NCBI GenBank assembly: GCA_003224145.1
Contig: QHYN01000200.1
Location: 1 to 64,000 of the forward strand
Direction: 5' to 3'
Origin: Acidobacteriota bacterium
GTDB lineage: Bacteria > Acidobacteriota > Terriglobia > Acidiferrales > UBA7541
Length of the DNA: 64,000 nt
The notes below the pieces were generated by a model. The model saw nothing but the letters and a program-made list of their open reading frames with translations. It was not told the origin of the DNA and searched no databases. Below, piece after piece: positions 5,526 to 23,044 of the stretch; position 1 is the first letter of the stretch, and each line of letters begins with the position of its first letter. A program made the position numbers and the translations under genes.

Positions 5526-5942
5526 ATGAAGATTCCACATCAAGACCGCTGGCGCTCGTTTTTCGCAACGCTTTGCCTGGTTGCGGTCGTCCTTCTTTAT
5601 GCGCCGCTGGCCGGAACCGCATGGACTCTCTACTCCGTAGCCTGCTGCACGTCGGGGCAATGCCCGATCCAGGGACACCATCACCAGCACTCACCCGCTT
5701 CCTCTCGGAAGTCGATGGACTGCGGTCATGAAATGCCCGGCTTGTCCAAATGCACCATGTCGTGTTGTCATAATTCGGACCATCCCGCAATCGCACCTGT
5801 TTTGTTTGTGCTCCCTCCCGCGCTCAACGTTTCTGCGCCTTCCAGTTTCAAGTCATCCATCACTTTCTCTAAGCCATCGAATGATCTGCGCTCAATCGAG
5901 CCGCTTTCACCTCCTCCTCGCCTCTCTGCAGCGGCCGCTTAA
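5526..5942 (+). CDS. Small exported Cys/His/Met-rich protein, putative metal-associated
   Basis: N-terminal hydrophobic segment FFATLCLVAVVLLYAPLAGTAW, then CCTSGQCPIQGHHHQH and CGHEMPGLSKCTMSCCHNSDH; directly upstream of a TonB receptor. Confidence 0.6.
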   Translation: MKIPHQDRWRSFFATLCLVAVVLLYAPLAGTAWTLYSVACCTSGQCPIQGHHHQHSPASSRKSMDCGHEMPGLSKCTMSCCHNSDHPAIAPVLFVLPPALNVSAPSSFKSSITFSKPSNDLRSIEPLSPPPRLSAAAA

Positions 5943-12355: not shown

Positions 12356-13720
12356 ATGGCGGGAATGGCTGACAAATTTTCGCGGCTTGCCGCTCTGAGG
12401 CCTGCGCGACCGTCCGCCACGCGCGCAGAGAAGGCTGCGCTCCGCGCGCCCGACCAAGAAGACGCCCTCGGCCAACTGCTGGGAGCAGGCGTGGCGAAAA
12501 ACCATTTCGGCGAGCACTTGGCCATTCGAAACTGGTATTCCACTCCGGAATACATTGAGCCGTCCACAATCGCCGTTGAACTACTCTCTCGCATGCGCGA
12601 CGAATCCCTTTCCCGAAAAACCCGCGCTGCTCTCGAGAATCCATCCAAATGGCTGTTTCTCGATACGGAAACGACGGGCCTCGCAGGAGGAACCGGCACG
12701 TACGCGTTTCTCGTTGGCGTGGCGTGGTGGGATGCCGGAGGATTGCAAGTCGAACAATTCTTCATGCGCGATTTCACGGAGGAATATTCAATGCTCCAGG
12801 AATTGGCGGCGCGCGTTGCGGAGCGGCCTGTCCTTCTCACGTTTAACGGGAAATCGTTCGACTGGCCGCTGCTCGAGAACCGTTTTACGATGACGCGCGC
12901 GATCGCCGCGCCAAAGCTGGCCGCACATCTGGATCTGTTGCATCCCGCGCGCGCGCTGTGGAAGCTGCGCCTGGGTACGGTTCGGCTGGTGGAACTCGAA
13001 CGCCACGTCCTCGACGCCCCTCGGCTCGGCTGGCGCCGCGAGGACGATGTGGAGTCGGCTTTGATCCCGCAGTATTACTTCGATTATTTGCGAGGCGGAA
13101 GCGCGCGCCCGCTTGCGGGAATCGTGAAGCACAATCAGATGGACTTGCGCGGCCTGGCCGCTCTTTTCTGCAGAATCAATACGCTGCTTTCTGATTTGTC
13201 GTGCAACGCAGGCGAAGTGGAAAGCCTCGATCTTTTTGGCCTTTCGCGATTCTTGCAACGCCGCGGGGATGCGGGCCGTGCGCATACCGCGTGCGCGCAA
13301 GCGCTGGCGATCGGACTGCCCGCCGATGTACGGCCGAAGGCGCAACGGGAACTGGCGCTGATGGCCAAACGCCGCGGTGAACACGAACGCGCCGCAGTGA
13401 TCTGGCAGGAGATGGTTGCGGATTCTCAGGACGGAGTGCGCGCCTGCGAACAACTGGCCATCTACTACGAACGGCACGCTAAAGACTTTCGCCGTGCTAT
13501 GGAATTCGCGCAATTGGCACTGGGCAAGCTCAGGCGGGAACGCGGTCTCTTGCAACGACTGTTGCGCGATCCGTATGCGGGGGCTCGACGTGCGCGACTG
13601 GAGCAGAGATTCCGTCATCGGATTGCACGGCTGGAGAAAAAAACTGCGCGGTCTTCTCCGGCACGGTGCGGGGGCGCTCCGGAGGCTGCGGCGCCAAAGG
13701 CCAGTCGAGCGCTTTGGTAA
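12356..13720 (+). CDS. mrfB: Ribonuclease H-like (DnaQ-type) 3'-5' exonuclease with TPR-like C-terminus, MrfB/YprB-like
   Basis: WLFLDTETTGLAGGTGTYAFLVGVAWW and VLLTFNGKSFDWPLLENRF (DEDD-type motifs); ATG immediately follows the TAA of the helicase gene. Confidence 0.8.
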   Translation: MAGMADKFSRLAALRPARPSATRAEKAALRAPDQEDALGQLLGAGVAKNHFGEHLAIRNWYSTPEYIEPSTIAVELLSRMRDESLSRKTRAALENPSKWLFLDTETTGLAGGTGTYAFLVGVAWWDAGGLQVEQFFMRDFTEEYSMLQELAARVAERPVLLTFNGKSFDWPLLENRFTMTRAIAAPKLAAHLDLLHPARALWKLRLGTVRLVELERHVLDAPRLGWRREDDVESALIPQYYFDYLRGGSARPLAGIVKHNQMDLRGLAALFCRINTLLSDLSCNAGEVESLDLFGLSRFLQRRGDAGRAHTACAQALAIGLPADVRPKAQRELALMAKRRGEHERAAVIWQEMVADSQDGVRACEQLAIYYERHAKDFRRAMEFAQLALGKLRRERGLLQRLLRDPYAGARRARLEQRFRHRIARLEKKTARSSPARCGGAPEAAAPKASRALW

Positions 13721-15017
13721 AGTCATCGAACACGTCCCGCGTAGAGCCTTCCATCGTCACGCACTCGCGGCCGAGACAATAGAGGAAAACGGCGCCATCG
13801 GGAGTTTCAAAGGAAAAAAAGCTTGGGCGGCGCAAAAGATTGACGCGCTCCGAATGTTTCTTCTCGAGCGCTTCGGAATATTGCCCAAAGAAACGAGCGG
13901 CATGCTCTTCGCTGTCGAGATGCAAGCGCGTGACGAGGATCAGCTTTTTCGTCTGTTTTTGTTCGTAAAGCGCGTAGCGATCACCGTCCCAGGTGGCCGC
14001 CAGAGATTTGGCGCGGTCGTCATCGAGAAATTGCTTCACGACCTCCTTCCAGCCGAATTCGCCCAAAATGTTCTCATCGAGCTTCGCCCAATCTTTCCCA
14101 AGCATTTTCTCGAGTGGCGGGAGCGTGACGCTCGAAGGAGTTTTCGCGGATTTGTACAGTTCGGGATGCAGAATCTGCTGCGTGGAGACAGGAGGTTTTT
14201 CAAATACTCCGGCTAGAGTGGCCCAGCCGCTGCTTTTGAGCACTGCTGCCGAGAAATTGAGTCCGCTGATATAAGGAAAGATCAGCGCGTCCTTGAGAAA
14301 GGGGGGCGCGGTCTTGAGCGTCGGGGTGCTTTCCAGTTCACCAATCAGCATGGAGGGATCGAATTCTGGCAGGTCCTTGAGTGAACGGCCAGTCCCCAGC
14401 ATTAAGTAATCCATCATAGCGGCCATGGCGCTGCCCTCAAGCACAGCATCACGCGCCAGTTCCGCGTCTTCATTGGGCCGTGCCGCCCGGCTCCACGCCT
14501 CAATGTGAAAATGCTGGTCTTCGAGCGCATGCGTCAGTTCATGGGCCATGACCATGCGCTGATCGCTAAGCGGGCTCCAGTCTGCGATGTAAAATTCCTG
14601 TGTCTTGGGGTCGTACAGACCCTCGACCTGCTCCGTGAGCACGTTCACCATAAAAGCATCAAGGTCGAATCCTTTGGGAAGCAAGCCGAGAGCTTCGGCC
14701 GTGCGCGCGTCAGCATACCGCTCGGCGGGATTCTTTTCTTCGTTCATCTGCTTGATGACGTAGGCGCGAATCTCCTCGCGCGAGCGCAACGATTTCTTCA
14801 AAGGAGTGAGCAGCTTCAAACCGGTGATCTCGCTCATTTGGCGGAGCACTTCGTCGGCGGCGGCGATGAACTCGGCATTGTTGAGGGCCTTGGAATCCGC
14901 GCGCGGAGCCGCCACGGAAGCTTCTTGCGCAGGGGCTCCTGCCGCACCGAAAAGAAAGGCAAGGCACGCAAACAGTGCGGTTAGCCTGGATTGGACCCGT
15001 TTTAGGATGAAAGCCAT
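13530..15017 (-). CDS. Exported zinc metallopeptidase-like protein (HEXXH)
   Basis: Signal peptide MAFILKRVQSRLTALFACLAFLFGAAGAPAQ; MVMAHELTHALEDQHF motif. Confidence 0.75.
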   Translation of the reverse strand: MAFILKRVQSRLTALFACLAFLFGAAGAPAQEASVAAPRADSKALNNAEFIAAADEVLRQMSEITGLKLLTPLKKSLRSREEIRAYVIKQMNEEKNPAERYADARTAEALGLLPKGFDLDAFMVNVLTEQVEGLYDPKTQEFYIADWSPLSDQRMVMAHELTHALEDQHFHIEAWSRAARPNEDAELARDAVLEGSAMAAMMDYLMLGTGRSLKDLPEFDPSMLIGELESTPTLKTAPPFLKDALIFPYISGLNFSAAVLKSSGWATLAGVFEKPPVSTQQILHPELYKSAKTPSSVTLPPLEKMLGKDWAKLDENILGEFGWKEVVKQFLDDDRAKSLAATWDGDRYALYEQKQTKKLILVTRLHLDSEEHAARFFGQYSEALEKKHSERVNLLRRPSFFSFETPDGAVFLYCLGRECVTMEGSTRDVFDDFTKALDWPLAPQPPERPRTVPEKTAQFFSPAVQSDDGISAPVAHVEPPHTDRATVVARDRVPA

Positions 15018-15194
15018 GTCTTGAGCAGAATAACAGAATCAGAATTTCCCTGCTGTTCCCGATGGCCGGCCATCTTCCGAACTCCCACACCGTTTGGCAA
15101 ACGCTTGTCGGGCAACAATGGTAAACTAAGGAAAACCCGTTTCGCTGTTCCGAAATCTTAACAGTATGGTAATTCTAATGTACCCTTCAGGGAG

Positions 15195-15221: not shown

Positions 15222-16004
15222 ATGCAGCCAGGTCTTCGGTTAAGGCAGGCGCGAGAACGACTGGGACTAACTTATCGAGATGTGGAAAGGGCCAGCTATG
15301 AACTGGCAGCCCGCCGTGGCCGTCCCGATTTTATCCTCCACATTAGCCGGCTGGCAGACATCGAAAACCGGGGAGTTGTGCCGGGCCTGCACAAGCTGTA
15401 CACCCTCGCAGCCATTTACCGGCTGAATCCACTGGAAATTCTTCGCTGGTTCGACATCCCCATCGAGGAGTGCTTCCATGATGGAACCTCGTTCGGGGTG
15501 CCGCAGACCCACTTGATGGCAGCACCCACGTCGTTGCGCATACCGATGAGGTTTGATCCGGCATTTGATCCGCGGCGGACGGAACTATTATCGCGGATGG
15601 TGGAAAAGTGGGGCCATTTTGAGGGGGTGTTAACCAACGGTCACAGCGACCACGTCTATGGGTATATCGGAATGAGTGACCGGCGGATGGTGCCTTTGTT
15701 GCGTCCGGGGAGCATCGTGCTTGTCGATGCCTCCCGGCACAGGGTTGAGGATGGTGATTGGAGCAGCGAACACGACCGGCCGATGTATTTTGTTGACGTT
15801 CGCGATGGCTATCGCTGCGGCTGGTTTCACGAGGATGGGCCGAAACTGGTCATGCAACCGCACCCGTTATCGCATTGTTTGCCGGAAGCGTGGCGCATGC
15901 CGGAGGAAGCGGAGATCGTCGGCCGCGTTGCAGGGATCGTCACGCGTCTGAGCGAGCCGTGCTGCATTGCTCGTGGAGAATCTCGAGCAATGCCCGAAGA
16001 TTAG
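15222..16004 (+). CDS. XRE-family HTH regulator with S24/LexA-like C-terminal beta domain
   Basis: LRLRQARERLGLTYRDVERASYELAARRG...FILHISRLADIENRGVVPGLHKLYTLAAIYRLNPLEILRWF; C-terminal MVPLLRPGSIVLVDASRHRVEDG. Confidence 0.8.
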   Translation: MQPGLRLRQARERLGLTYRDVERASYELAARRGRPDFILHISRLADIENRGVVPGLHKLYTLAAIYRLNPLEILRWFDIPIEECFHDGTSFGVPQTHLMAAPTSLRIPMRFDPAFDPRRTELLSRMVEKWGHFEGVLTNGHSDHVYGYIGMSDRRMVPLLRPGSIVLVDASRHRVEDGDWSSEHDRPMYFVDVRDGYRCGWFHEDGPKLVMQPHPLSHCLPEAWRMPEEAEIVGRVAGIVTRLSEPCCIARGESRAMPED

Positions 16005-16389
16005 AGATGAACAGCTCCTTGAGATAATCCGGAGCCTGCTCAGGAATCAAAACGCGGTACGGCTCGAGTTGACGCCAGTGCGAAACAACCGCGGCCAGAC
16101 CTCCTTCCATTGCCGCGAGACAGCTTTTCAAATCCTCCAACTGCTTGGAAAGCGGCCTCTCGAGAATGCGCTCGAAAATCTGCTCGTGACATACCTGGAG
16201 GGCCTGCTGGACAGCTTCCTCCGGGTAAAGCGCCGCGAGGCCTTGATGCTCATACCGTCCGCTGGATAAGTCCCGCAGCGAAGACACATAGACCAGTCTC
16301 GCGAATTCTCCGGGAATTCCCGCCAAGGTCGTCACCGTGAAATCCTGAATGACCCTGCGATTCTGCTGGAGTTGTGTGAGCGTTCCCAT
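15940..16389 (-). CDS. Conserved hypothetical protein (helical, about 149 aa)
   Basis: ORF with plausible composition; convergently overlaps the XRE gene by 65 bp. Confidence 0.55.
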   Translation of the reverse strand: MGTLTQLQQNRRVIQDFTVTTLAGIPGEFARLVYVSSLRDLSSGRYEHQGLAALYPEEAVQQALQVCHEQIFERILERPLSKQLEDLKSCLAAMEGGLAAVVSHWRQLEPYRVLIPEQAPDYLKELFISNLRALLEILHEQCSTARSDA

Positions 16390-16481
16390 ATCAACCTGTG
16401 TTCCGCAAACAGAACATTTTCCAACTCGAAATTTCGCTTCGGACGTAGCCCCTCAGCATGCGGCTGAGGAGGGTTACGCCC

Positions 16482-16811
16482 TTGAAAAAAACCGCATTGG
16501 TCTTGGCGATTTGCGCCTTGACTCTGTTGATCCTACTTCCCGCAGTTTCTCCCGTCAATACTTCAAACAGCGGTACACCGCTAACCGACCGGGTACGATA
16601 CACGCGCAGTAATACAACCCTAATGGTGGACGGCTGGCCACTCCCGCCACCGATCCCGCCTCAGCAGACCGAAACCCTTGTTGCGGACGGCTGGCCGCTG
16701 CCGCCACCGATCCCGCCTCAGCAGACCGAAACCCTTGTCGCGGACGGCTGGCCACTACCGCCACCGATCCCTCCGAACATGAATACAGTAGCTTATCCGT
16801 ACTCTGTCTAA
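16482..16811 (+). CDS. Small secreted or membrane-anchored tandem-repeat peptide precursor (3x DGWPLPPPIPP)
   Basis: GAGGAGGG SD at 16466-16473, 8-nt spacer, TTG start; MKKTALVLAICALTLLILLPAVS signal/TM segment; three 19-aa-spaced DGWPLPPPIPP copies. The ORF track uses an upstream ATG at 16458. Confidence 0.75.
   Translation: MKKTALVLAICALTLLILLPAVSPVNTSNSGTPLTDRVRYTRSNTTLMVDGWPLPPPIPPQQTETLVADGWPLPPPIPPQQTETLVADGWPLPPPIPPNMNTVAYPYSV
16629..16775 (+). repeat. Tandem 57-nt repeat encoding DGWPLPPPIPPQQTETLVA (two full copies plus a partial third)
   Basis: GACGGCTGGCC units begin at 16629, 16686 and 16743, exactly 57 nt apart. Confidence 0.95.
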
Positions 16812-16931: not shown

Positions 16932-17720
16932 ATGGTTGGGAACTTTACTTTTGACCGCTTACTCTGGAGCATCACCTTTCTTCTCAACACAGAGCTTGTC
17001 GTTTTGCTCGTCTACCGAAAGAATCATCGAGTCTTTCCCTTCTTCTTCATCTACGCCCTGCTGAACCTTTTCCAGGGTATTGTCCTCTTCGAGAGCTACA
17101 GGATTTGGGGATTTCGGTCCACCGTATCTATGCGAGTCGCTTGGAGTGTGCAGGGTTTGGTGACCTTTGCGCGAGCAGTGGCGGTCGCTGAGATTTGCCA
17201 TCGGATCCTGGCGAAGTTTCGTGGTATCTGGGGGCTCGCTTGGCGACTGCTGTTTGCGGCAGCCGCCTTCATTTCGTTCTACGCCTGGACGGTTTCCCGA
17301 GGAAGCTGGCCGTTTGCGATCTTGAATCTGGATCGCGGCCTAGAGCTGGCGATGGCCACGGTGATCGTCCTCCTTTTTGCGTTTGCCCGGTACTACGAAG
17401 TGGGCGTAGAGCCAGCCGTCCGAACGGTGGCAATCGGCTTCTTCCTGTATTCTTGCTTCCGCGTTCTGAACGACACAATTCTAGAAGGCTGGTTGCACCG
17501 TTACGCGACGCTGTGGAATCTGTTGGGAACGCTGTCCTTCCTGGCAAGCATGCTGCTGTGGAGCTGGGCTTTCCGCCGGACGCAACCTGCGACGACATTC
17601 GAGACCGGACTGCTGCCAGAGGATCTCTATCGCACGCTAGCACCGGAAATCAATGCTCGGCTGAGAGAGCTCAACGAACAGTTAAGGCATTTTGGGCATG
17701 CCGAAGGGAAGAGAACTTGA
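16932..17720 (+). CDS. Polytopic membrane protein (about 7 TM), unknown function
   Basis: 262 aa with multiple hydrophobic helices and a charged cytoplasmic-like tail PEINARLRELNEQLRHFGHAEGKRT. Confidence 0.7.
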   Translation: MVGNFTFDRLLWSITFLLNTELVVLLVYRKNHRVFPFFFIYALLNLFQGIVLFESYRIWGFRSTVSMRVAWSVQGLVTFARAVAVAEICHRILAKFRGIWGLAWRLLFAAAAFISFYAWTVSRGSWPFAILNLDRGLELAMATVIVLLFAFARYYEVGVEPAVRTVAIGFFLYSCFRVLNDTILEGWLHRYATLWNLLGTLSFLASMLLWSWAFRRTQPATTFETGLLPEDLYRTLAPEINARLRELNEQLRHFGHAEGKRT

Positions 17721-18295
17721 ACCTTCACCTCTATCTATTCTTTGGACTAATCGGATTTCTCCTTTTCTTATTTCTATGGGCCATCCGAAACTCGAAGGCA
17801 CGCGCCTCCCGGTCCTCCGGCAGGAGCATTCCGGAAGATTTTGGCCGAAGTCATATATCGCACTGGGCGCAAATCCGGCAGGCGCTGGCCAAGACGGACC
17901 ATGAATTCGTGGCGAATCAAGCTCCGCGGGAGGTCGTGCGGCGAATGCGGCGAGAACGTCGGCGAGTGGCCCTTGCCTATCTTCTTGCTTTGCGCGGAGA
18001 TTTCGATGGACTCCTCGGAATGGCAAGGGTTATCGCTGTGCTGTCTCCGGGAGTGGCTGCGGTGCAGGAGTTCGAAAGGCTTCGTCTGACGGTAAACTTC
18101 CTGTGGCGGTACCGGATCATCCGGATGAGCGTATGGGCAGGTTACGCGCCGCTGCCGCAAATGGATGGTCTGAGCAACTTGATCAGCGGATTCAGTGTTC
18201 GACTGGAGGCGGCCATGAAAGAACTGGGTGAGCGCGCCGCCCTTGTGGCGGAGATGGTGTCATCACCCGATCGGCGCCGCATCCATCCTGTTTAG
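17717..18295 (+). CDS. Single-pass membrane-anchored hypothetical protein
   Basis: TTG start overlapping the TGA of the upstream gene (TTGA); NLHLYLFFGLIGFLLFLFLWAIRNSK N-terminal TM, then basic helical domain. Confidence 0.6.
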   Translation: MNLHLYLFFGLIGFLLFLFLWAIRNSKARASRSSGRSIPEDFGRSHISHWAQIRQALAKTDHEFVANQAPREVVRRMRRERRRVALAYLLALRGDFDGLLGMARVIAVLSPGVAAVQEFERLRLTVNFLWRYRIIRMSVWAGYAPLPQMDGLSNLISGFSVRLEAAMKELGERAALVAEMVSSPDRRRIHPV

Positions 18296-21200
18296 CAGCA
18301 GGTCATCGACGGCCGCAAGCAAATCACTTACTTTGAAAGGCTTTTGCAATACCTGGCGAGGGCTTCCGGGCAGTTTCCCCCCTGCGCTTCCGGACGGCGC
18401 GACGGCAGACATCCAGACCAATTTGCGGGAAAGAGCCGGCCTATGCTGGGCCAGCCAATCTCCGAGGCCTGTTCCGTTCGGACCTGAGGCAATTTGCAGA
18501 TCAGCCACAATCACGTCGAAGTCTTGTTTCTCAAGCAGTCTGTGAGCTGCAGACAAGCTCCTGGCCACCTCCACACGATGATCGCGAGCCCGAAGTAAAG
18601 TCCCAACCGCTTCCAATACTGAGTCGTCGTGATCCACCAGGAGAATATTCCCCGTCTTGCCGGAGTCTGCCTTTGTTCTGTCCACCGATAAGTTGGGAGA
18701 GGCTGCCCGTTGGAATGGCAACTCGATGGTGAAAGAAGCGCCACGCGGCGGAAGGTTCGTGACGCGAATTGTTCCGCCGTGCTCGGTAATGATCCCATAA
18801 CAGATGCTCAATCCGAGGCCAGTTCCTTTGCCAACCGGTTTTGTCGTGTAGAAAGGATCGAAAACGCGGGAAGCGTCCTTTACCCCCGGGCCGCTGTCGG
18901 TAAACTCAATGAAAATAAGGTCGCCGTTGATCCCAGTACGAACCCAAAGGTCACCTTCGCTGGAGCGCTCCAGTATAGCGTCCACTGCGTTGTTTACCAG
19001 ATTCAGAAAGACCTGCTGCAACTGATGAGGATCGGCGGCCGTCACGGGAAGATCCGGAGCAAGATCGAGATGGATGCGAATGTTGCTCATACGCAAATCG
19101 TAGTCACGAAGCGCCAAGGTCTCCTCCAGAGCCTGATTGATTTGAACCGACACCCGCTCCGGCTTGTGCTGACGGGCAAAGCTCAAAAGGTTCTGCACGA
19201 TGCGGTGGGTGCGCTGTGCTTGCTTATAAAGTTTGTCCGCGTATTCGATTCCCTGCTGATTTAATTGACCGCTGGACGTCAGTAACTGGCTGTAGCCAAG
19301 GATGGCCGTAAGCGGGTTATTTAGTTCGTGCGCAACGCCGGAGATGAGCTGGCCGACCGCGGCCAGTTTTTCACTGTGAAGCAGTTGCTCCTGTGTGCGA
19401 CGCAGGTTTTCATAAGCCTGGCGTGTTTCTTCGTAGAGGTTCGAGCGCTCGATCGCGCTGGAGATCTGGCTGCCAACGGCGATGAGCAGATTCACATCCG
19501 CCGGCGAAAATTCGCGTGGTGTGCGGCTTCCAACAACGAGGCCGCCAATCACGCGGTCTTTCGACCAAAGGATTACCACGTAGGCCGTGGCTATCCCTTC
19601 TTTTATTTGCGCATCGCGGAATACGGGTGGCAGCGGCAAGCCCTGCGCGGAGAGAAAGGTCGCATGAACCGCCTTGATGTGCTGCACCAACTCCGGCTTC
19701 ACGGAGACGGCCGGAAAATGCCGCGAGTATTCTGAGCGATGGCCGGCTGCGGCAATGCGACGCAACTTCGTGACCTTTTCATCGAAGAGATAGAGCGAGG
19801 TGGCGTCCAGACTGAAGAGTTCGGCCATCTGCCGCAGGGTGCGGTGCAGCGAGTCGCCCAGGTCCAGCGATTCCGTCAGCGTCTTGGCGATCGAGTTCAG
19901 CACCATGAGTTCCCGATTGCGGCGCCGGATTTCCTGCTCCGCCTGTTTACGTTCGGTGATGTCCAGGAGGAAACCCTGATAGGCGGTCACGTTTCTCGCG
20001 GAATCCCGTACGGCTATGGAAGATTCCAGCATGGTGCGGAACTCGCCATCCTTGCGCCGCATTTCGAACTCGAAATCCGCAACCGCACCGTGTTGCTCCA
20101 GCAGTCTCTTAAGCCGCTCGCGATCGGCGGTGTTCTTGTAGAACGCCGTCGGAATATCAATGGTCATCAACTCCTCGCGGGTCTCATAGCCGGTCATGCG
20201 CAGCAGGGCTTCGTTAAAATCGAGAAACCTTCCCTGCGGCGTGGAGATAAACACGCCTTCCTGTACGTTGGAGACAAGCGTGCGATACTTTTCCTCCGCC
20301 CTCTTGCGTTCCGTAATGTCCTTAAGCACGTGAACGGTGCCGAGTTGCCGCCCGCCAGGGTCCGCGAACGTCGAGTTGGACACGAGGAAGTACCCCGAAA
20401 GCCAGGGATCGGGAGCGTCGCCTTCACCGGCGACTCCTTCGCAATAGGGGCAATTACTGTAGGCTGCGTTCTTGGCGGAAAGAAGTTCCTTAACATTCCT
20501 GCCGACCAGAGTGCCGCTCCCGCGGCCCAGAAGCTGCTTGAGACGCTGGTTGCTGCGCAGTATGCGCCCCTGGGGATCGTGAACCAAGATGGGGTCGCCA
20601 ATGGAATCGAAAGTGTATTCCCATTGTTGCTGAGTGGTTGTGACCTGCTCAAACAAACGAACATTCTGCAGCGTCATCCCCAGCAGGTTGGCAATATTCA
20701 CAAGGTAGGAGATTTCGTCGGTGTGAAAGCGCGTATGCGCCGTCGAGCCTATCGCAATGACTCCCAGGGCGCCGTTCTTCCCCGGAAGGGCGAGCGTTAC
20801 CAACGATTTCAGTCCTGCTTCGTCCAGCCGCTTGCGTGCGGCCGGGTCCCATTCATCTTTCGATTCCAGAAACTGGCATTCTTCTTTCAAAACATGCTGC
20901 GCCCACGGTTCCATGGCGGATACTCGGGCATGCTGCGCAAGGAAGGAAGGCGTGTAGCCCACCGATGCCCGGGCCACCAGGTACGACGCATTGCCCTCGC
21001 CCTCTTTCAGCCGCACGATTCCGTGCGTAGCCCCCAAGCTTTCCACCAGATGCGAAAGGACCTGGTCAATCACCTCCTGCACGGAAAGAGTCTGCGTGCT
21101 GGCCGCAGTCAACAGAGTCAACCGGCGCAACTTGTCATTCAATTCCTCGCTTCGCGCTTGGGCTTCTTCCAGCACGGCGACCACCATGGCGATTCCCAGG

Positions 21201-21889
21201 GCCACTCCGAGAAGATGATCAAACGCGATACGCAACAGAAAGTACGGATGCTGCAGCCAAAGGGGACGGTCCAGCCCATGCAAGCCAATCAGGAGAAAAA
21301 CCCCGGCAAGAAGTTGCGCGCCGTGCCCTCGGAGCGCCATGGGAGATCGCAGGAGCAAGAAACCGGGAAAAAGGCAAATTGCGCTTTCAAATATGGCAGT
21401 TTCCCAATGCAGGGAAGCAAACTGCTGCGGCCCTCTTCGCTCCACATAGTAGACCGCTCCCAGAATCAGGCTGATCAGTGGAAGTACCGAGAAGATTCGT
21501 CGATCTGACCCCGTTGCGCCGTTCATTACCGCCGCAAATAGGAACAGCAGCGCGGCGGCCTGGCTTGCCAGATAAACAAGATTTAGACCTGCAAGCGGCC
21601 GGGCGAGCAGCGTCACTTCACACAGCGCCGAAAACGTGAAGCAGCACCATCCGGCAAGCCAGAATCGGAAATAGCCTGTGTGATGATCGCGGCGGAAGAG
21701 GAAAAACAGGACCAGCAGAATGACGAATGCGCTGGCTTCGAAGAAGGCAATCCCGAGCAGGCCTTGGTTCTCCAGCAAGATGCGCCGCCTCCCGGCCGTA
21801 AATGCCGTCACCGCGGTGCTCGAGCTGCCGCGAACCTTGATGTGAACGGCGAGAAAATCCGAAGGATGAGCTTCTATCCAAGCTAGCAC
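18263..21889 (-). CDS. Hybrid sensor histidine kinase (N-terminal multi-TM, GAF, PAS, PAS, GAF, HisKA, HATPase, REC)
   Basis: SGVAHELNNPLTAILGYSQLL H-box; VNNAVDAILE N-box; DSGPGVKD, GKGTGLGLSICYGII; C-terminal REC NILLVDHDDSVLEAVG...VIVADLQ...LQKPF. Confidence 0.9.
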   Translation of the reverse strand: MLAWIEAHPSDFLAVHIKVRGSSSTAVTAFTAGRRRILLENQGLLGIAFFEASAFVILLVLFFLFRRDHHTGYFRFWLAGWCCFTFSALCEVTLLARPLAGLNLVYLASQAAALLFLFAAVMNGATGSDRRIFSVLPLISLILGAVYYVERRGPQQFASLHWETAIFESAICLFPGFLLLRSPMALRGHGAQLLAGVFLLIGLHGLDRPLWLQHPYFLLRIAFDHLLGVALGIAMVVAVLEEAQARSEELNDKLRRLTLLTAASTQTLSVQEVIDQVLSHLVESLGATHGIVRLKEGEGNASYLVARASVGYTPSFLAQHARVSAMEPWAQHVLKEECQFLESKDEWDPAARKRLDEAGLKSLVTLALPGKNGALGVIAIGSTAHTRFHTDEISYLVNIANLLGMTLQNVRLFEQVTTTQQQWEYTFDSIGDPILVHDPQGRILRSNQRLKQLLGRGSGTLVGRNVKELLSAKNAAYSNCPYCEGVAGEGDAPDPWLSGYFLVSNSTFADPGGRQLGTVHVLKDITERKRAEEKYRTLVSNVQEGVFISTPQGRFLDFNEALLRMTGYETREELMTIDIPTAFYKNTADRERLKRLLEQHGAVADFEFEMRRKDGEFRTMLESSIAVRDSARNVTAYQGFLLDITERKQAEQEIRRRNRELMVLNSIAKTLTESLDLGDSLHRTLRQMAELFSLDATSLYLFDEKVTKLRRIAAAGHRSEYSRHFPAVSVKPELVQHIKAVHATFLSAQGLPLPPVFRDAQIKEGIATAYVVILWSKDRVIGGLVVGSRTPREFSPADVNLLIAVGSQISSAIERSNLYEETRQAYENLRRTQEQLLHSEKLAAVGQLISGVAHELNNPLTAILGYSQLLTSSGQLNQQGIEYADKLYKQAQRTHRIVQNLLSFARQHKPERVSVQINQALEETLALRDYDLRMSNIRIHLDLAPDLPVTAADPHQLQQVFLNLVNNAVDAILERSSEGDLWVRTGINGDLIFIEFTDSGPGVKDASRVFDPFYTTKPVGKGTGLGLSICYGIITEHGGTIRVTNLPPRGASFTIELPFQRAASPNLSVDRTKADSGKTGNILLVDHDDSVLEAVGTLLRARDHRVEVARSLSAAHRLLEKQDFDVIVADLQIASGPNGTGLGDWLAQHRPALSRKLVWMSAVAPSGSAGGKLPGSPRQVLQKPFKVSDLLAAVDDLLLNRMDAAPIG

Positions 21890-21955: not shown

Positions 21956-23044
21956 GTGGACAGAGTGGACGACGAAACCATACTGGTCGTGGACGACGAA
22001 GAGGCCATTCGCGAGGTCGTTTCCACGATGCTCGAATCCAAAGGCTATCGTTGCGCGGTCGCGCACAATGGCCGCGCCGCGCAGGAGCAGATCAAACGCG
22101 ATACCCCTGACCTGGTCCTGAGCGACATGATCATGCCGGAGATGGACGGCATCAAGCTGCTGGAATGGGTGCGCCAGTATGACCCGGATGTGCCGGTCAT
22201 CATGGTCACTGCCATCCATGACATTTCGACCGCGCTCGAGGCCATTCGCCGCGGCGCTTACGATTACATCCTCAAGCCCTTCGAAAAGGACCAGCTCTTC
22301 CTCGGCGTAAACCGCGCTCTGCAACATCGGCGGCTCGTCAACGAAAACCGGAAATATCAGCGCGATCTCGAGCAGCAGGTCAGAGATCGAACCGCCCGCC
22401 TCCAAGAGGCTCTCGACCAGCTCGAGCAATCTTACGACGACACTCTGGAGGCCCTGGGGGGCGCTCTGGACTTGAAAGACGAAGAGACTGAAGGCCATTG
22501 CCAGCGCGTAACCGCTTTCTGTATTTCCATTGCGAAAATGGTGCCGGTGCCCGATGGCTATCTGCCCATCATGGCACGTGCCGCATTCCTTCATGATATC
22601 GGCAAGATGGCCATACCCGATGGCATCTTGCGCAAACCTGGCCCTCTCACCGACGATGAAAAAAGGGTCATGCGTACGCACTGCGAAATTGGCTACAACA
22701 TGCTAATTCGCATCCCTTTTCTTCGCGATGCCGCGGAAATCGTGCTGGCGCACCAGGAGTTCTACGATGGCTCTGGTTACCCACGTGGATTGAAAGGCGA
22801 GGAGATTCCTCTCGGTGCGCGCATATTCGCGGTCGCGGATTCCCTTGACGCCATGGTCAGCGACAGGCCCTACCGCCGCAAACTCCCGATGGCCCACGCA
22901 TGCGAAGAGATCAAGCGATGTTCCGGCAGCCAGTTTGATCCCGAAGTGGTCAAAGTCTTCTTGTCCATTCCGGAACAACATTGGTTGGACCTGCGCGAAA
23001 ATCTTGGTTCTCCGTTCCGTCTCGCCCATCTCAAGAATTTGTAG
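21956..23044 (+). CDS. Response regulator with HD-GYP domain (putative c-di-GMP phosphodiesterase)
   Basis: ETILVVDDEEAIREVV REC; AAFLHDIGKMAIPDGILRKPGPLTDDE and HQEFYDGSGYPRGLKGEEIPLGARI HD-GYP. Confidence 0.9.
   Translation: MDRVDDETILVVDDEEAIREVVSTMLESKGYRCAVAHNGRAAQEQIKRDTPDLVLSDMIMPEMDGIKLLEWVRQYDPDVPVIMVTAIHDISTALEAIRRGAYDYILKPFEKDQLFLGVNRALQHRRLVNENRKYQRDLEQQVRDRTARLQEALDQLEQSYDDTLEALGGALDLKDEETEGHCQRVTAFCISIAKMVPVPDGYLPIMARAAFLHDIGKMAIPDGILRKPGPLTDDEKRVMRTHCEIGYNMLIRIPFLRDAAEIVLAHQEFYDGSGYPRGLKGEEIPLGARIFAVADSLDAMVSDRPYRRKLPMAHACEEIKRCSGSQFDPEVVKVFLSIPEQHWLDLRENLGSPFRLAHLKNL

Follow-up and report, generated by a model that had tools for sequence, protein, structure and literature searches.

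The 64,000-nucleotide stretch of acidobacterial DNA analyzed here (hereafter, the window) contains, at positions 16482-16811 of the forward strand, a short open reading frame (ORF), denoted PEP, that encodes three copies of one proline-rich peptide behind a hydrophobic N-terminus. The locus raises the question of whether this ORF is a genuine precursor of multiple peptides and, if so, which of the neighboring genes act together with it and what the peptide could do.

The precursor gene and selection on its units

PEP starts with a TTG codon at 16482, ends with a stop codon at 16809-16811 and encodes a protein of 109 aa. The start is preceded by the Shine-Dalgarno sequence GAGGAGGG (16466-16473, plus strand), which is separated from it by an 8-nt spacer and is conserved in the orthologues. 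An alternative in-frame ATG is located upstream, at 16458; the TTG is taken as the start because, in 28 orthologues, a TTG or ATG in the corresponding place follows an AGGAGG-type site. The N-terminal segment (MKKTALVLAICALTLLILLPAVS, 16482-16550, plus strand) is predicted by direct reading to be an export signal or a membrane anchor, and all PEP homologues have similar hydrophobic N-termini; the hydrophobic stretch is long and is followed by proline, so that it might be an uncleaved anchor. Repeat analysis delineates a 57-nt repeat in three copies, with the 11-mer DGWPLPPPIPP encoded at 16629-16661, 16686-16718 and 16743-16775 (all on the plus strand), the protein sequence being the same in all three units and the synonymous sites differing. 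PEP is the only ORF in the host genome that contains this 11-mer. The Shine-Dalgarno site, the spacer, the TTG start, the export-type segment and the three units had all been described in a sequence-only reading of the locus and are confirmed by re-reading of the sequence and its translation. A search of Pfam and NCBIfam with PEP yields no match, which argues against the alternative, raised in that reading, that the repeat is a domain of a larger known family.

A scan of genome contigs with PEP as a single protein retrieves no relatives, the divergence of the peptide being too rapid for this approach; searches with profiles of the neighboring genes do succeed. Homologues with the same layout are encoded at the same syntenic locus in ~30 related Acidobacteriota genomes (the homologue search covered 89 genomes of the same family and produced matches in 28 at E<=0.01, most but not all of which are true homologues on reading). 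The precursors contain 1-5 units each, some loci being single-unit, and in relatives the unit has the general form hydrophobic residue-x-A-DG-x-P-rich (e.g., DGWPLPPGPP x4, DGDPLPPPIPP x3, DGVPLPPPTQP x4 and SGSPLPQPTPP x3). The unit sequence differs between species but is nearly identical inside one precursor even though the codons differ: comparison of units within precursors reveals 260 synonymous differences over 473.5 sites versus 98 nonsynonymous differences over 1182.5 sites (pS 0.55, pN 0.083, ratio 0.15). Therefore, selection preserves the peptide, and recent duplication alone is insufficient to account for the identity of the units. The sequence-only proposal of a multi-copy peptide precursor is thus supported by the units of the relatives, the variation of copy number and the retained neighborhood, with the qualification that conservation applies to the layout, whereas each species has its own version of the 11-mer. 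Tryptophan is not common to all units: in the relatives, this position is occupied by W, Y, D, A, G, S, V, N, P and other residues. The mean charge is -0.76 over 75 units, none of which is positive, and proline accounts for 48% of the residues. In one locus (L107:5618-5900, minus strand), the ORF in the PEP position contains only a degenerate unit (GQGGNPKVPGGTGGGGAA) and is perhaps a decaying or divergent peptide.

The gene neighborhood and its operator-like palindromes

The conserved gene order at the orthologous loci is helicase, RNase H-like, metallopeptidase-like (minus strand), HTH, u (minus strand), PEP, TM1, TM2, histidine kinase (minus strand) and HD-GYP response regulator. PEP is located directly upstream of TM1 in both orthologous and paralogous loci; in the latter, the order is PEP-TM1-TM2-u, with HTH convergent. 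The HTH gene (15222-16004, plus strand) encodes an XRE-type regulator of 260 aa with a C-terminal domain; Pfam identifies HTH_31 in 18 of 24 members of this family, the window protein scoring below the gathering score. Motifs resembling an S24/LexA-like C-terminus can be discerned in HTH by eye, yet there is no Pfam match, and an hhalign comparison with E. coli LexA yields a probability of 0.3%, so that this assignment is unsupported. HTH adjoins u in nearly all loci examined. The u gene (15940-16389, minus strand), the 3' end of which overlaps HTH, encodes a small all-helical protein (AlphaFold pLDDT 96) whose structure has no match in the PDB and whose sequence has no convincing match in Pfam. 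TM2 (17717-18295, plus strand) starts with a TTG that overlaps the TM1 stop codon and encodes one transmembrane segment followed by a cytoplasmic helical domain; the search of Pfam with TM2 homologues reveals no convincing family.

The gene at 13530-15017 (minus strand), which is oriented divergently to HTH and retained at the orthologous locus, encodes a predicted secreted protein of the HExxH metallopeptidase-like type that resembles the Hvo_1808 surface protein family (NF038145) below the cutoff. This protein was considered as a maturation enzyme for PEP and dropped, as it was not found in the paralogous module loci examined. In most orthologous loci, the module is adjoined by a multi-PAS/GAF hybrid histidine kinase (18263-21889, minus strand, in the window) and the HD-GYP response regulator (21956-23044, plus strand). 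PADLOC detects no defense-system match in the module, and a defense-system reading was rejected on this ground.

Palindrome comparison identifies two operator-like sites in the window, O1 (TGTTCCGAAATCTTAACA, 15146-15163), situated 75 nt ahead of the start codon of HTH and with 2 mismatches to TGTTCCGN4CGGAACA, and O2 (TGTTCCGCAAACAGAACA, 16399-16416), located between u and PEP and with 1 mismatch. This palindrome is conserved: at <=2 mismatches, it is found upstream of PEP in all 29 orthologous loci (shuffled regions, 1.3%) and precedes HTH in 15 of the 29; most loci have a similar site around -70 to -78 relative to HTH. Perfect palindromes occur five times in 36 genomes of the genus, every one at a PEP promoter, and the reversed control has none. 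In six paralogous loci, the peptide gene is preceded by another palindrome that is built in the same way, TGGTTGGN4CCAACCA, with a mismatch in some of these loci; variants are present in a further two. The protein that binds the operator is presumably HTH. A search with the operator reveals no wider regulon, the sole other site with 1 mismatch in the host genome being inside a kinase ORF. In three further loci (L117, L118 and L119), HTH-u pairs are accompanied by a TM2-like gene and a seven-helix-like ORF, with no obvious peptide of the PEP type, and a TGTTCCG-type palindrome still precedes the HTH gene.

The seven-helix protein TM1 and its co-variation with the peptide

TM1 (16932-17720, plus strand) encodes a membrane protein for which the AlphaFold model shows seven long helices and a C-terminal, apparently cytoplasmic helix (mean pLDDT 87). 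The charges are mostly positive-inside, in agreement with a predicted N-out/C-in topology, and variability is higher in the outer half of the protein than in the inner one (p=1e-5). Searches with 48 members against Pfam produce no match, and the comparison with PDB sequences yields one chance-level match to a designed repeat protein, limited to the C-terminal helix. Foldseek retrieves seven-helix folds that are non-significant (best E=0.02, TM-scores about 0.4); in this comparison, homology to GPCRs or rhodopsins, which was considered, does not reach significance. Given the lack of a significant structural match, the proposed role of TM1 as a receptor or cognate partner of the peptide is based on topology, variability and co-variation.

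Among up to 32 orthologous loci, the mean pairwise identity is 36% for TM1 and 41% for TM2, compared with 82% for the helicase, 66% for RNase H, 60% for the metallopeptidase-like protein, 66% for HTH, 59% for u, 64% for the kinase and 73% for the response regulator. Corrected for relatedness through HTH similarity, unit similarity follows TM1 similarity (partial Mantel r=0.49, p=0.0005), and it does so also given HTH, u and TM2 (r=0.42, p=0.0005), where p is the floor of 2000 permutations and the Mantel test is liberal on tree-like data; in the parsing of units for this analysis, a shifted unit remained in one locus (L048). Neither u nor TM2 shows an independent correlation with unit similarity. 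The comparison of locus L046 with the window is consistent with this association: the flanks are 76-94% identical and TM1 only 31%, this TM1 being nearer the type found in L043, L048 and L049, and the L046 unit has the G-S-P-L-P of those loci. At the sequence level, this looks like a switch of the peptide-partner type at a fixed locus. Co-variation without direct contact could also arise from co-inheritance or cassette exchange, given that PEP and TM1 are neighbors.

Possible functions and spread of the module

The module combines repeat units under purifying selection, species-specific unit sequence and a co-varying partner, the features by which a pheromone-type system would be recognized. 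In the RRNPPA/Rap-Phr systems of Bacillota, a short exported propeptide is encoded beside the receptor gene, some pheromone propeptides are tandemly duplicated and contain 1-4 units that are identical or similar, and the receptors, which bind the re-imported peptide in the cytoplasm, are highly specific for their own pheromone (PMC11343458). PEP, with its predicted export-type N-terminus and units encoded directly upstream of TM1, resembles this arrangement, but the co-varying partner here is a seven-helix membrane protein and the host is an acidobacterium. Furthermore, Pfam detects no TPR family in the homologues of HTH, u, TM1 and TM2, so the module does not qualify as an RRNPPA system with a cytoplasmic TPR receptor. 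The agr (AgrBDC) and ComQXP loci pair a hypervariable peptide with a membrane partner between conserved flanks, as does the module; unlike these systems, however, the nearby kinase (18263-21889) is not hypervariable (64% mean identity, like other flanks), and the units are linear, proline-rich and repeated. No homologue of AgrB or ComQ is detected in the module with Pfam and NCBIfam. The yeast alpha-factor precursor consists of an export signal and tandem identical units, and its receptor Ste2 has seven helices, an organization that parallels PEP and TM1. Nevertheless, there is no detectable homology (Ste2 is among the top Foldseek matches of TM1, at a non-significant E=0.04 and TM-score of 0.38), and the PEP units are not separated by dibasic Kex2-type sites. 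Apidaecin-type proline-rich antimicrobial peptides are also made from multi-copy precursors, and like these, PEP carries repeated proline-rich units in one precursor; apidaecins are, however, Arg-rich and cationic, whereas the PEP units are acidic to neutral.

This last contrast is relevant for the possibility that the module is a toxin-immunity pair, with the units being narrow-spectrum antibacterials against close relatives, TM1 (with TM2) providing immunity and HTH repressing the genes until stress. Bacteriocin-immunity loci, too, typically contain adjacent genes that diversify and co-vary, and undergo an exchange of types while the locus stays in place. Still, we regard this explanation as unlikely, considering that the units, with a mean charge of -0.76 and 48% Pro, do not resemble cationic proline-rich antimicrobials, that tandem identical copies are, to our knowledge, unusual among bacteriocins, that the module has no PADLOC match, and that the conserved cytoplasmic half and tail of TM1 and the dedicated regulator suit sensing better. 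Similarly improbable is a cis-acting accessory peptide, whereby the precursor would stay anchored and its proline-rich units would serve, without release, as a multivalent ligand or sensor (e.g., of an envelope condition) for TM1 of the same cell. The long hydrophobic N-terminus without an obvious cleavage site in the window PEP, the shared operon with TM1 and TM2 and the existence of single-unit members all fit such a scenario, and co-variation requires contact rather than release; the variation of copy number and the identity of the units, in contrast, are what would be expected of released units, and putative SPase-like sites (e.g., MFA↓N and VFA↓Q) are predicted by eye in the TM1-linked peptides of other families of the phylum.

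Multi-core precursors occur among RiPPs, and the units could in principle be cores of a post-translationally modified natural product, as the sequence-only reading had suggested. This appears highly unlikely: the scan of flanking genes, which covered the window and the paralogous loci of the same genome, revealed no modifying enzyme, the partners of the peptide are limited to membrane proteins and a regulator, and the window cores contain no Cys, Ser or Thr. Finally, PEP is a short ORF in repetitive DNA without a known family and could be taken for a GC-rich repeat that is open by chance; conservation of the start, the Shine-Dalgarno site, the layout and the position in ~30 genomes, together with the synonymous bias of the differences between units, refutes this reading, the probability of which is negligible.

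On balance, the PEP/TM1 set is probably a new peptide-ligand/membrane-receptor (pheromone-like) system, with an estimated probability of about 0.6. Under this pheromone-like scheme, PEP would head a PEP-TM1-TM2 operon and encode the precursor of a proline-rich, acidic-to-neutral signal peptide in several identical copies, which would be exported via the hydrophobic N-terminus and released as units near the conserved hydrophobic-x-A↓DG boundary. TM1 would be the membrane protein that is cognate to the peptide and most likely serves as its receptor, with the peptide acting on the variable outer half of TM1, and the conserved cytoplasmic half and the C-terminal helix might relay the state of TM1 to TM2, u and/or HTH. 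HTH would control the operon and its own gene through TGTTCCGN4CGGAACA; by altering operator occupancy, it could close an autoregulated, pheromone-like loop that would include a putative TM1-HTH link. This set of parts belongs to no described system, and TM1, TM2 and u are in no Pfam family, although peptide signaling as a mode of working is already known; among open-licence papers, we found no peptide signaling system in Acidobacteriota and no earlier description of the gene set. If the prediction is correct, bacteria would possess a new type of peptide perception, based on a peptide and a seven-helix protein that co-diversify, and what looks like an exchange of peptide-partner types without a change of locus would make the evolution of signal specificity directly testable. 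Acidobacteriota are abundant in soil, and the gene set is carried by soil members.

Two additional peptide-TM1 pairs, with peptides that differ from that of PEP, are encoded in the host genome: one belongs to a second module, on contig C247 (peptide ..ILIADGGDPVPPPSPLPWPKKAA), and the other, on contig C302, has two NGGAPVPPVPWK units. In a sample of 396 genomes spanning the phylum, 45 contain matches to the TM1 profile. Outside the family, a proline-rich export-type ORF is located directly upstream of 15 of 32 TM1 genes compared with 3 of 104 control genes (p=9e-9, strict criterion), the 32 genes including some from related genomes and so not being fully independent; several other TM1 genes outside the family have a short export-type ORF upstream that fails the strict criterion. 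It is tempting to speculate, albeit tentatively, that there exists a phylum-wide pheromone system that employs multi-copy proline-rich peptides and dedicated seven-helix receptors, each genome having several paralogous channels that are insulated from one another, and some channels possessing a separate regulator and operator. The highest number of copies observed is in L216 (4789-5190, plus strand), where six tandem SPSAPQPIPPAGDSF-type units are encoded upstream of a TM1 gene. In L222, which represents a further family within the phylum, TM1 is preceded by an ORF (5698-5904, minus strand) that contains a different repeated peptide, with DGMTGIPP units.
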